Assembly (NCBI GenBank): GCA_022801925.1
Contig: JAAWTG010000016.1
Span: 1 to 57,964, forward strand
Source of the DNA: Clostridia bacterium
GTDB lineage: Bacteria; Bacillota; Clostridia; RUG12999
Direction of reading: 5' to 3'
DNA: 57,964 nt
Shown here one piece after another: positions 23,172 to 49,871 of this stretch. The notes under the pieces are model-generated. The model was not told where the DNA came from and searched no databases. It saw only the letters and a program-made list of their open reading frames with translations. Position 1 is the stretch's first letter, and every line of letters begins with the position of its first letter. A program made the position numbers and the translations under genes.

Positions 23172-24047
23172 TTACTGTGTAATCATAGAACCAATACCGG
23201 TGTTCGTAAAGATTTCCAGCAAAATACAGTGCGGTATTCGTCCGTCGATGATATGAACGCGTTTAACGCCGTGGTCAATGGCGTCAATACAGCCGTGTAC
23301 TTTGGGAATCATGCCGCCATTGATAATGCCTTGGTCAATGAGTTCCAGAGCATGTTTTTTGGTGAGTTCAAAAATAATCTGTTTGGCTTCGTCTAAAATG
23401 CCTTGAATGTCCGTTAACATAATCAGTTTTTCTGCTTGCAGCGCACAGGCAATTTTGCTGGCGACTGTGTCGGCGTTGATATTGTAGGTTTGTCCGTTAT
23501 CGTCTGTGCCAATGGGGGCGATAACCGGAATATATTCTGCGGTTGCATTATGGCGCAGCAGTTCTGTGTCAATGGAGACAATATCTCCGACAAAACCGAT
23601 GTCTACCGGTTTTCCATTGTCTGTGACCTCTGCTTTTTTACATTTGATTAAATTTCCGTCAATGCCGCATAGGCCAATGGCCTTACCGCCTTTTTGGTTG
23701 AATAGGGAAACAATTTCCTTATTGGTTTTTCCAACCAGGACCATGCGCGCAATATCAACGGTTTCTTGGTCGGTGACCCGCAGTCCGCCGATAAATTTGC
23801 TTTCAATGTTAAATTGCTTAAGTGCGCTGGTGATATCGGGGCCACCGCCATGCACAACAATAGGATTCACGCCAACGTATTTCAGCAGTGTGATATCTTC
23901 CATGACAGAATTTTTTAAATCTTCATTAATCATAGCGTTGCCGCCGTATTTAATAACGACCGTTTTGCCGTAAAGCGTTTGAATATAGGGCAGCGCCTCC
24001 ACCAGAATACTGGCTTTTTTAATCAATACATCCATTTCAAAACTCAT
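23172..24047 (-). CDS. argB: Acetylglutamate kinase
   Basis: A 291-residue kinase of the amino acid kinase family that phosphorylates N-acetyl-L-glutamate with ATP, the second step of arginine synthesis. It shows KYGGNAM near residue 30 (nucleotide loop), [16 protein letters not shown] and the C-terminal [14 protein letters not shown] block, and ends on the arginine-sensing side with TNTGIGSMI. The start is taken at 24047 ([12 protein letters not shown]), which has GGAGAG seven bases upstream; a longer frame to 24083 has no ribosome site. It follows argC on the same strand after 94 bases; argJ and argD, often between or after these genes, are absent. Confidence 0.96.
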
Positions 24048-24055
24048 AAATGAAA

Positions 24056-24133
24056 CTCTCCATTCCGCCGCCCTGCACAGCATATATAGTAAAGTAGGAA
24101 TCTCTTATCGGCAGGGCAGGAATGATAAGAGAT
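24056..24133 (-). promoter_or_regulatory. hairpin and candidate pseudoknot between argC and argB
   Basis: Read on the transcribed minus strand, ATCTCTTATC (24124-24133) pairs perfectly with GATAAGAGAT (24100-24109) around a 14-base loop. The loop (ATTCCTGCCCTGCC) can also pair with GCAGGGCGGCGGAAT at 24062-24076, immediately before the argB ribosome site GGAGAG (24056-24061). The T-tract flanking this stem (24134-24138) lies on the wrong side to terminate argC transcripts. The pairing is what the sequence shows; control of argB translation is inference. Confidence 0.4.
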
Positions 24134-24141
24134 TTTTTGTT

Positions 24142-25188
24142 TTATAGATAATATCCGGCAGCAGAAATGCCTGCTGTTTCTTCCAGACCGAACAGCAGGT
24201 TCATGTTTTGCACTGCCTGCCCGGCTGCACCTTTGAACAGATTATCAATAGCGCTGACAATAATAATACGATTTAGACGTTCATCGATGCAAAAACCAAT
24301 ATCCACAAAGTTGGAACCCGCTACATGGTTACTCTCTGGCAAACCGGACTCATAAATGCGGACAAACGGTTCGCCTTTATAAAATTCCTGATACAAAGAA
24401 ACCACTTCTTGATGAGAGATTGATTTGTTTAAGTTTGCATAAGAGGTTGCAAAAATGCCGCGTTTCATAGGAACCAAATGCGGAGAGAAGGAAAGCATGA
24501 TAGTTTCTCCCGCAACCAGCGACAATTCTTGTTCAATTTCTGAAGTGTGACGATGCGTTGCCAGTTTATAGGCTTTCATATTTTCTGTACATTCGCAAAA
24601 ATGATAGTCAATGCCAAGACCGCGTCCCGCGCCGGAAACACCAGATTTTGCATCAATAATAATGTTTTTGGTGTCGCAAATTTTAGCAGACAGCAGCGGG
24701 GCAAGTCCCAAAATGCTACAAGTAGTATAGCACCCTGGATTGCCGATTAAATCTGCTTTTTTAATTTCCGCGCGGTGCAGTTCCGGCAGCCCATACACGG
24801 ATTTTTCTAACAATTCGGGCGCAGTGTGTTCTTGATGATACCACTGTTCATAAACCCGAATATCGTTATAACGGAAATCACCACTGAGGTCAATGATTTT
24901 CACACCGGCTTCATATAAAGCAGGAATCACTTCTTTAGATGCGCCGTGCGGCAGGGCAGTGAATACAACATCACACCGCTTCTGTGCTGTTTTCACATCT
25001 AATTCTTCGCAGGTTAAATCAACCACATTTTGAAGATGAGGATATACCTCTGACAATTTCTGACCGACATAGCTATGCGACACGATATAGGTTAGTTTGG
25101 CGTTTGGGTGGGAACTGATGATTCGTGCGAGTTCCACGCCTGCATAGCCCGTCACACCTAATATTCCAACACGGACTTGATTTTCCAT
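24142..25188 (-). CDS. argC: N-acetyl-gamma-glutamyl-phosphate reductase
   Basis: A 348-residue NADPH-dependent reductase that makes N-acetylglutamate semialdehyde, the third step of arginine synthesis. The Rossmann start VGILGVTGYAGVELARI, the active-site block GNPGCYTTCSILGLAPLL (catalytic Cys) and SGVSGAGRG are present, and length matches the family. The start is taken as MENQVRVGILG at 25188; AAAGGA lies about 12 bases upstream, a little far, and another ATG at 25200 is too close to that site. It heads an argC-argB unit transcribed from a promoter carrying an ARG box. Confidence 0.96.
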   Translation of the reverse strand: MENQVRVGILGVTGYAGVELARIISSHPNAKLTYIVSHSYVGQKLSEVYPHLQNVVDLTCEELDVKTAQKRCDVVFTALPHGASKEVIPALYEAGVKIIDLSGDFRYNDIRVYEQWYHQEHTAPELLEKSVYGLPELHRAEIKKADLIGNPGCYTTCSILGLAPLLSAKICDTKNIIIDAKSGVSGAGRGLGIDYHFCECTENMKAYKLATHRHTSEIEQELSLVAGETIMLSFSPHLVPMKRGIFATSYANLNKSISHQEVVSLYQEFYKGEPFVRIYESGLPESNHVAGSNFVDIGFCIDERLNRIIIVSAIDNLFKGAAGQAVQNMNLLFGLEETAGISAAGYYL

Positions 25189-47120: not shown

Positions 47121-48647
47121 TCATAGATGAAAAATAGATTTTGCGAAATGGAAATCGCGGCGGTGGGCACAGTCTAAAATATAGAGAAATGCCAAATAGC
47201 ATAGTCCGGAGGAACCGGCAAGTAATATTAATGCAGAAAGTTCCGGTAAATGAATGATGTACGAGAAAGACTTTACCAAAAAGACGGACAGACTAATTGC
47301 CAAAGCAGGTTTCAAAAACCATGCACCGAATTTGATTTTGAAATCAACCACTTTCACCAGCCGGTTTAAACTGAGAGTAGTATTGAGCATTTCGCTGGCA
47401 AATAATACAATAATGTATCCATGGATACCAAGCAGTGGCAGCAGCAAATAAACCAATGCAACGCTCATGATGGAATCAATGATATTATATCGCATAGAAT
47501 AGACCTGTTCATTGAGCCCTTTCAGCATACAATCTACTGCATGGTCTAAATACATCAATATCACTAATGGCGCCAGAAGTTTTATATAATAGGCTACCTG
47601 CGATGTATGAAAAAAGATAGAACTGATATTGTCAGCATAGGCAATCAACAGTCCTGCAACACCAATGGCAAATATCAGCGAGAGTTCAATCACGCGTGTG
47701 GATATCATGCGGATACGTTTGTTTTGTGTCTGCGCTAGGCATTCTGTCAGTTCCGGAACCAGCAGACTGGTAAATGCATATAAAAAGCAGGCGGGGAACA
47801 TAATCACCGGAACCGCCATACCATGCACCATGCCATATTGGGCAAGTGCGTTTGTGCTGGTCATGCCCGACTTTTGTAGACCGGGCGGAATCATGAGTTG
47901 TTCTAAAGTGTTGAGACCGGAGCGGATACAGGAACTGAAGGTCACGGGCAATGTAATGTATAGCATTCTGCCGGCAATATGTTTTCCGGCTGACTGACGT
48001 TGCTGGTGGCGGTTTAAATCGCGGCGGTATAGCAAATAGGAATAAATGAACGACAGAACTTCAGCAGCGGTTCCGCCCAGCGCTACAGCAAGGCAGGCAT
48101 ACTCTAAACCGGCAGGCATGAGAATAGAAAGCGCAATGATAGAAAAGATTACGCGTGCAAAGGTTCCTAGAATTTGTTCGGAAGCATTTTTTCCAATTTG
48201 CCGCATTGCCATAAAATATCCGTTCAGTGCAGCAGTGGCGCAAATGAATGGAATGCTAAGTGCCATAGTACGCAGGGAGAAAACACAGCGGACGTCGTGC
48301 AGCCAATGGATACTAATATAATTTGCAAAACAGCACAGAAGAAGGGCGACTGTTCCGCCGGCAACGAGACTATAGATAAAGCAAACACGCATGGCTTTTT
48401 TTGCGCCGCGTGAAGAATGATTTGCCATTTCTTCCGCCACCAGACGTGTGGCGGCGAGATGAATACCGGCAGTAGCAAAGGTGATAGCAAAGCTATAGAT
48501 GGACATGATAAGCTGGAATAATCCAATACCATTCGCACCCAATTTATTGGAAAGATAAATATTAAATGCAATTCCAACTGCCTGAATCAAAAAAGCGGTC
48601 AAGGTCAAAAGAATACCCTGCCATAAAAATGCCTTCAATTTTCTCAT
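47121..48647 (-). CDS. spoVB: SpoVB-like polysaccharide flippase (MVF/MATE fold)
   Basis: A 508-residue protein with about 14 membrane segments, of the SpoVB/Wzx/MurJ superfamily (MATE_like). Family features are FNIYLSNKLGANGIGLFQLIMSIYSF near residue 30 and AIGVAGLLIAYADNISSIFF in the second half. SpoVB moves lipid-linked glycan intermediates across the membrane for spore cortex or wall assembly. The start is ATG 48647 with GACGAGG eight bases upstream; the frame extends 15 codons further without a ribosome site. It stands alone between two terminators. Confidence 0.85.
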   Translation of the reverse strand: MRKLKAFLWQGILLTLTAFLIQAVGIAFNIYLSNKLGANGIGLFQLIMSIYSFAITFATAGIHLAATRLVAEEMANHSSRGAKKAMRVCFIYSLVAGGTVALLLCCFANYISIHWLHDVRCVFSLRTMALSIPFICATAALNGYFMAMRQIGKNASEQILGTFARVIFSIIALSILMPAGLEYACLAVALGGTAAEVLSFIYSYLLYRRDLNRHQQRQSAGKHIAGRMLYITLPVTFSSCIRSGLNTLEQLMIPPGLQKSGMTSTNALAQYGMVHGMAVPVIMFPACFLYAFTSLLVPELTECLAQTQNKRIRMISTRVIELSLIFAIGVAGLLIAYADNISSIFFHTSQVAYYIKLLAPLVILMYLDHAVDCMLKGLNEQVYSMRYNIIDSIMSVALVYLLLPLLGIHGYIIVLFASEMLNTTLSLNRLVKVVDFKIKFGAWFLKPALAISLSVFLVKSFSYIIHLPELSALILLAGSSGLCYLAFLYILDCAHRRDFHFAKSIFHL

Positions 48648-48673
48648 TTTGCTACCTCGTCTCATTGCGGTTG

Positions 48674-48701
48674 ATGCTATCCTCAAAACCATCTATGTCA
48701 A
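48674..48701 (-). promoter_or_regulatory. candidate promoter of spoVB
   Basis: On the minus strand TTGACA (48696-48701), 16 bases, TAGCAT (48674-48679), about 25 bases before the start. A sigma-E promoter, as in Bacillus, is not evident. Confidence 0.4.
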
Positions 48702-48746: not shown

Positions 48747-48783
48747 AAAAAAATAGACCGGAGGTTATTTTAAACTCCGGTCT
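48747..48783 (-). terminator. terminator of the minus-strand small-protein/structured-RNA unit
   Basis: AGACCGGAG (48755-48763) and CTCCGGTCT (48775-48783) pair perfectly around an 11-base loop. On the minus strand the stem is followed by ATTTTTTTC (A-tract 48747-48753 on the plus strand), so it terminates leftward transcription. Confidence 0.92.
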
Positions 48784-48794
48784 GGATAGATGTT

Positions 48795-48996
48795 TTAAGC
48801 AAAGAAGAGTCGAACTGCGTGCGGTCTCCGAGGCAGATTTCCTTGCCAGCTACGTTAAAATCACTTGAAATACGCCAGTATTCCTGCGTGCTTTTGCCTT
48901 GCTGGCAAAAAAATCTGCTCCCTAAAGACTTCAGAGAACCGTGCGCGCAAAAATTTTTCGCGCACGGCGCATGTGGTTCGACTCTTCTTTGCTTAA
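48795..48996 (-). ncRNA. 202-nucleotide nested inverted-repeat RNA candidate, possibly raiA-like
   Basis: The ends (48795-48815 and 48976-48996) are perfect 21-base inverted repeats. Inside, GCAGATTT/AAATCTGC (48833-48840, 48911-48918) and TGCCAGC/GCTGGCA (48844-48850, 48901-48907) continue the closed stem. CCGTGCGCG (48939-48947) and CGCGCACGG (48959-48967) form a local hairpin whose 5' arm could instead pair with GCGTGCGG (48817-48824), so two alternative folds exist. A terminator follows 12 bases later on the minus strand. This layout and length fit large bacterial non-coding RNAs such as the raiA motif, but I identify that only by recollection. An inserted MITE-like element is the main alternative. 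The right arm contains the stop codon of the 66-residue gene. Confidence 0.6.
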
Positions 48997-49193
48997 GAAA
49001 GCTGGTCAATATAAGATTTTAAGCTGTCCAACTCTTTGTGCAGCGGTACATTAATCACTTTTTTAATTGCTTGGTTCAGTTCTTCGTATTGGTTTCCAGT
49101 GACAATAACTTCGTCATCTTGGTGTTCTTCCAAAAGCGCAATACGGTGATCAATTTCATGGATAATCTGCTGTTTTAACGAATCGTGTTTCAT
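48993..49193 (-). CDS. Small helical protein of unknown function
   Basis: A 66-residue, charged, soluble protein predicted as two helices (KHDSLKQQIIHEIDHRIALLEE and ELNQAIKKVINVPLHKELDSL, broken by a polar GNQYEEL). AAAGGGG lies eight bases before the ATG. I do not recognise the family. Its stop codon lies inside the right arm of the large inverted repeat that follows, so the RNA element may be its 3' untranslated region, or the element may have inserted into an originally longer gene. Confidence 0.65.
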   Translation of the reverse strand: MKHDSLKQQIIHEIDHRIALLEEHQDDEVIVTGNQYEELNQAIKKVINVPLHKELDSLKSYIDQLS

Positions 49194-49322
49194 AAAATAA
49201 TCCCCTTTATGTGATAGTTCAGATATAGTATAACGTGTTTTTAGAAATTTTATGTATGGTATAAAACCATAATGGAATTATCATACTAATGATAAAAAGA
49301 ACAGATGGGAGCGAAGCGTCAT

Positions 49323-49871
49323 ATGAGTATCTATGATATTGAAGTAGAAAGTATAGACGGTAAAAAAATGCGTTTGGAAACATATCGCGACAAAGTATTG
49401 GTCATTTTTAATTCTGCCAGTAAATGCGGATTTACGCCACAGCTTGGAGAACTACAGGAACTTTTTGATAAATATAAAGACAGGGGATTGGTAGTGCTGG
49501 GATTTCCATGTAATCAATTTCAAGAACAGGAACCCGGAGACCATCAGGAAATCAAAGAATTTTGTTCTAAAAATTATGGCGTCACATTTCCGATGTTTGC
49601 AAAGATAGAGGTCAATGGACCGCAGGCACATCCGTTGTTCCAGTATTTAAAGGAAAAATTTGGATTTAAAGGATTCAACATGGAACACCCGCTTGGAAAT
49701 GTTTTAACAGAACTTCTAACCAAAGAATATGGCGATTTTGCATCAACACCAGATATCAAATGGAATTTTACAAAGTTTATTGTAGACCGCGGGGGACAGG
49801 TGAAAGCACGATTTGAGCCAACAACAGAGCCGGAAGCGATGGAACCGTGTATTGTGGAATTGTTGTCGTAG
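49323..49871 (+). CDS. Glutathione peroxidase family thiol peroxidase
   Basis: A 182-residue thioredoxin-fold peroxidase that reduces hydroperoxides. The active site SASKCGFTPQLGELQ has Cys (not Sec) near residue 33; GFPCNQFQEQEPG and WNFTKFIVD provide the Gln, Trp and Asn of the catalytic tetrad. Most bacterial members with this Cys type use thioredoxin. The start is MSIYDIEVES at 49323; GGGAG lies 11 bases upstream and an upstream ATG in frame (49305) has no better site. It is a single gene, followed by the tRNA-Leu promoter. Confidence 0.94.
   Translation: MSIYDIEVESIDGKKMRLETYRDKVLVIFNSASKCGFTPQLGELQELFDKYKDRGLVVLGFPCNQFQEQEPGDHQEIKEFCSKNYGVTFPMFAKIEVNGPQAHPLFQYLKEKFGFKGFNMEHPLGNVLTELLTKEYGDFASTPDIKWNFTKFIVDRGGQVKARFEPTTEPEAMEPCIVELLS

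Follow-up and report, generated by a model that had tools for sequence, protein, structure and literature searches.

A palindrome at the stop codon of a small Clostridia gene is very probably a copy of a TA-inserting MITE

In the 57,964-nucleotide stretch of Clostridia DNA analysed here (the window), perfect 21-base inverted repeats at 48795-48815 (TTAAGCAAAGAAGAGTCGAAC) and 48976-48996 enclose 202 nt, and further stems are nested inside them, as an earlier note on this DNA had described. Does this palindrome specify a functional structured RNA, or is it a transposable element of the MITE kind, the two readings that the note had offered? The T and the A at the outer ends of the 21-mers belong to the flanks, and the element proper occupies 48796-48995. 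The palindrome does overlap the stop codon of a small gene, as had also been pointed out: the gene is a 66-aa open reading frame at 48993-49193 on the minus strand, without a Pfam match, and we refer to it as the host gene. The layout of the region is as follows.

48796-48995, no strand assigned: very probable MITE copy, 200 bp from TA to TA, shortened by internal deletion relative to its 278-317 bp siblings
48796-48815, plus strand: TAAGCAAAGAAGAGTCGAAC, the left terminal inverted repeat, which opens with one of the two TAs of the target duplication
48976-48995, minus strand: right terminal inverted repeat, the perfect complement of the left; the second TA is 48994-48995
48818-48933, no strand assigned: arm A of a Y-shaped fold; its stem pairs covary between subfamilies
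48939-48967, no strand assigned: stump of arm B, a short GC-rich hairpin, CCGTGCGCGC-AAAAATTTTT-CGCGCACGG; deletion junction at 48949-48958
48993-49193, minus strand: host gene, 66 aa; the insertion point lies within its TAA stop, which the first base of the element regenerates
48755-48783, minus strand: the host gene's rho-independent terminator, which is also conserved in a sister species without the element
47121-48692, minus strand: downstream neighbour outside the element, a Polysacc_synt/MatE protein (SpoVB/MurJ-like)
49305-49871, plus strand: upstream divergent neighbour outside the element, a glutathione peroxidase

Elsewhere in the window, a 582-bp TA-to-TA stretch at 23720-24301 has 14 of its 16 terminal bases inverted-repeated; it is unrelated to the MITE and possibly due to chance.

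Folding of the palindrome and comparison with known RNAs

Folded as RNA, the minus strand of the palindrome reached -120.5 kcal/mol (z -11.7) and its plus strand -120.2 kcal/mol (z -11.3), and 0 of 200 shuffles folded as well. Z-scores this extreme speak for an RNA gene expressed from the minus strand, be it the raiA motif or an undescribed riboregulator. However, the two strands fold equally well, and no Rfam family reached its gathering score at the window copy or at four loci with longer siblings. The raiA motif, which the earlier note had put forward as a possibility, was missing from the Rfam match list even when this was extended to E 10. Together with the evidence from copy number, empty sites and arm deletion given below, these results make an RNA gene very improbable. 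The link to sporulation that had been proposed along with raiA came from the SpoVB-like neighbour and nothing else, and is incidental.

The GC-rich arm had further been thought to give two mutually exclusive folds. The alternative pairing can indeed form, with 8 pairs (two of them G-U) between 48817-48824 (GCGUGCGG) and 48939-48946 (CCGUGCGC), but the two folds are not balanced: when this pairing was forced on the plus strand, the energy was -88.5 versus -99.4, about 11 kcal/mol worse. It therefore represents a minor fold and not one side of a balanced switch, and a riboswitch-like switch between alternative folds is rejected on the same energy gap.

A dispersed family inserted at TA

BLAST searches with the element returned 19 matches in its own genome (G000), 18 in G001 and 4 in G002, all of the same genus, while the sole match in 57 genomes outside these congeners was 27 bases long. 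The terminal inverted repeat (TIR), allowing at most one mismatch, occurred 96 times in G000, 106 times in G001 and 11 times in G002, against 0 matches for the reversed pattern used as a control; grouped by eye, the 96 matches in G000 correspond to about 78 sites. In exact form, the terminal repeat was present in 3 of 391 Clostridia genomes, all from one genus of 222, and phages, plasmids and viral contigs contained neither the TIR nor the element. Siblings, which we analysed in targeted stretches around terminal-repeat matches, fall into sizes of 27, 30, 31-32, 44-48, 54-59, 84-85, 160-174, 193-200 and 278-317 bp. At 27-317 bp and with short ORFs only, the element has no capacity to encode a transposase.

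The region of G002 orthologous to the window is collinear with it minus exactly 200 bp, and in this empty state a single TA is found (...ATGTTTTAAGAAAGC... when empty versus ...ATGTTT[TAAGC...GCTTA]AGAAAGC... when filled). At the window site, the outer bases are compatible with TTAA as well. Other sites resolve this ambiguity in favour of TA as the target: for three further long copies (281, 291 and 317 bp), the orthologous sites in a congener carry exactly one TA, and TA precedes 63 of the 70 distinct sites that have a full 17-mer TIR. A paralogous empty TA is also contained in a second repeat family, described below. With one TA when empty and two when filled, these sites show that the element inserted at TA and duplicated it, and that the insertion is polymorphic within the genus.

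An RNA gene would not be expected in dozens of copies at loci unrelated to one another, nor with empty sites that hold exactly one TA. These findings bear out the MITE alternative instead, which came through every test that was run: 19 BLAST matches in the element's own genome, copies that are scattered and end in terminal inverted repeats, exact empty sites, and a duplicated TA. We conclude with high confidence that the palindrome is a non-autonomous MITE copy and that its family is confined, within the searched genomes, to one uncultured gut Clostridia genus. The family is new; its kind, the structured MITE with a TA target, is already known.

At one locus of G000 (L058, G000:C57:6576-6689), elements of 84 and 32 bp adjoin each other and have one TA in common, one having inserted into the target duplication of the other.

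In the window, the TA of the host gene's stop codon was the target, and the element supplied the third base of the codon. The stop of the 66-aa gene is TAA in both the empty and the filled state, preserved because the element begins with TAA or TAG. What had been taken for the palindrome's own terminator is a minus-strand hairpin at 48755-48783 that resembles a terminator and has a T run. Since G002 also has this hairpin at its empty site, with a sequence that differs in places, the hairpin predates the insertion and is the host gene's old terminator, whose distance from the stop the insertion increased by about 200 bp. Across the family, with a crude ORF caller and 62 insertion points, stop-codon TAs (TAA/TAG) accounted for 11 of 62 insertion points compared to 65 of 1036 control non-ORF TAs (odds ratio 5.5, p 6e-5), and ORF interiors were depleted of insertions (odds ratio 0.14, p 1e-13). 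The window site is an additional stop-codon insertion beyond the 11 counted, missed by the caller because the host gene is short. The enrichment is compatible with target choice and with survival alike.

Secondary use by the host would also fit this enrichment, as well as the long, perfect stems that the transcribed strand forms and the position of the window copy between a gene and its terminator. Past stop codons, the folded transcripts of such a MITE would then serve as sites for RNase III, as terminators or to stabilise the mRNA; the Correia element has been reported to be bound and cleaved by RNase III (PMC2649163). Such use, suggested by analogy, is compatible with the MITE reading. However, the harmlessness of the insertion explains the stop-codon bias equally well, and the sister species lacks this insertion, so we regard host use as possible but somewhat doubtful.

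For the MITE reading itself, the expectation is that a hairpin transcribed together with a gene, like the one that follows the stop here on the minus strand, would affect mainly the stability or processing of the 3' end, and by analogy with Correia/NEMIS its transcript may act as an RNase III substrate or as a barrier to read-through.

Shrinkage in place and pairing in the full-length form

At one orthologous site, the element measures 280 bp in G000 and 27 bp in G001, and other orthologous sites hold 278 versus 150 bp and 27 versus 32 bp; elements of this family thus shrink in place through internal deletion. Taking 81 bp of arm B away from the 281-bp sibling L053 yields the window copy. Two AAAAATTTTT direct repeats in that sibling are spaced 81 bp apart, which is the difference between 281 and 200, and it was between these repeats that the window copy lost the inner part of the arm. 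A AAAAATTTTT-type motif is self-complementary and lies on both arms of the palindrome, and is therefore a direct repeat; with direct repeats on both arms, slippage deletion is to be expected, and internal deletions would arise through slippage at the replicating hairpin. Junction microhomology averaged 4.7 bp in 15 decomposable classes compared to 2.3 bp in simulated deletions, a crude test in which many short elements were not cleanly split and the window copy was not resolved. We therefore rely on the directly seen cases only, namely, the window copy and the 278/150 pair.

The shortest forms, palindromes of 27-32 bp present in many copies, recall REP/REPIN-type sequences mobilised by a RAYT (Y1 HUH) transposase. 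However, short and long forms occupy the same orthologous site, empty sites reveal TA target duplication, and Y1_Tnp is absent from the three genomes, which together make a REP/REPIN origin scarcely credible. The free deletion of arms, down to 27 bp, also argues against an RNA gene.

In an alignment of 19 long copies and the window copy, the cores fell into at least two subfamilies and the terminal repeats into three types (AGCAAAGRAGAG, GGCAAACAAAAG and GGCATAAGAGAG). The consensus fold is a Y formed by the terminal-repeat stem, arm A and arm B, with a full length of 278-317 bp. Compensatory changes were present in 22 of 96 pairs and extended across all three large stems; 97.3% of cells were paired, compared to 34-52% when the partner was slid by 1-3 columns, and the covariation score was 0.195 versus 0.117 in shuffles. 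The pairing of the Y-fold is thus maintained by compensatory changes. True compensatory changes in internal stems, beyond the terminal repeats, would be expected of an RNA gene, but arm-to-arm copying in palindromes also predicts covariation. Because the changes represent few evolutionary events and such copying could yield them without selection, they prove conserved pairing and not RNA function. A dedicated RNA function is unsupported.

At two pairs of orthologous sites in two species (L061/L089 and L101/L156), the left TIR type differs, with the remainder of the element almost identical.

Mobilisation, neighbouring repeat families and known relatives

The MITE was presumably moved in trans by a TA-specific transposase, either IS630/Tc1-like or from a TA-targeting group of IS5 type; the IS630/Tc1-like candidate is suggested by analogy with RUP. 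Searches of three genomes of the genus, fragmented metagenome bins from which multi-copy IS could be missing, gave no match to IS630 DDE_3, DDE_Tnp_1 or Y1_Tnp, and the weak IS630-model matches that did appear were equalled in level in 14 of 14 control genomes. Among TIRs facing each other 0.7-3 kb apart in two assemblies, there was no long same-TIR element beyond one 2.2-kb pair (G001:C4), which encloses an Rrf2-like gene and a hydrolase, without a transposase. At one locus of G001 (L193, G001:C7:45316-45552), a 695-aa open frame has a sub-threshold match to rve (integrase core), the sole DDE-type hint in the three genomes.

Other TA-bounded repeats accompany the element. A second, about 285 bp long and with TACCATCACTTGACAA as its ends, is found at L128 825-1109 (G000:C41) and also at L040, L042, L079 and L049; most copies seen have the first element nested inside at a TA, and this composite occurs at several unrelated loci. 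A probable third, with ends TAGCCTGACGCTT, is found at L079 6-282 (G001:C1) and L126 1-259. At L096 1501-1779 (G002:C220), terminal repeats of the first family surround a core about 70% like that of the third repeat, which suggests that ends and cores have been exchanged between families. A wider scenario, which we consider unlikely, would have the genus host at least two and probably three families of TA-bounded structured MITEs. One would be nested in another, an exchange of ends and cores would apparently have taken place, and the mobiliser would be a transposase of an unrecognised type. The Y-fold would then be either required for mobility, through recognition of a folded single strand, or kept by arm-to-arm copying at replication forks, and the 27-32 bp palindromes would be stable end products seeded at stop codons.

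The closest known kinds are Correia/NEMIS and RUP. Correia elements (CREE/NEMIS) of Neisseria target TA, carry TA at either end and are 104-157 bp long; their long terminal repeats are of alternative types, combined symmetrically or asymmetrically, their length classes derive from internal deletion, and their transcript is a long hairpin (PMC2649163, PMC2229807). At a single site, end type or symmetry varies between gonococcal strains (PMC2649163), and the change of TIR type at L061/L089 and L101/L156 resembles these differences. The Clostridia element shares with Correia the TA at target and ends, the TIR types, the size classes from internal deletion and the long hairpin. It differs in its host, its TIR motif, its length of 278-317 bp, its Y-fold and its collapse to 27 bp. 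The likeness is one of kind, and the genus-restricted TIR speaks against membership.

RUP of pneumococcus, 107 bp long, is paired with a candidate partner, IS630-Spn1, whose ends match its own. Like RUP, our element is intergenic, present in about 100 copies, bounded by terminal repeats, inserted at TA and endowed with a conserved predicted fold (PMC2229807, PMC3049150); unlike for RUP, no such partner was found in the three fragmented assemblies. Pneumococcal BOX, another structured repeat that provides stop codons, supplies that of a gene in 36 cases (PMC3049150). BOX is modular (boxA/B/C) and extends the ORF, whereas the Clostridia MITE regenerates the stop with its first base.

Together, these data explain a striking palindrome that would otherwise have been put down as an unknown RNA, and they carry a caution for RNA discovery pipelines, to which very strong folding and covariation alone would suggest a functional RNA. 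They document a Correia-like MITE family in gut Clostridia, with empty sites, collapse in place and covarying arms. The orthologous 280- and 27-bp forms reveal the decay of an element to a palindrome too short for repeat annotation, and the stop-codon bias, combined with ends that restore TAA or TAG, points to a route by which such elements may spread at little cost.
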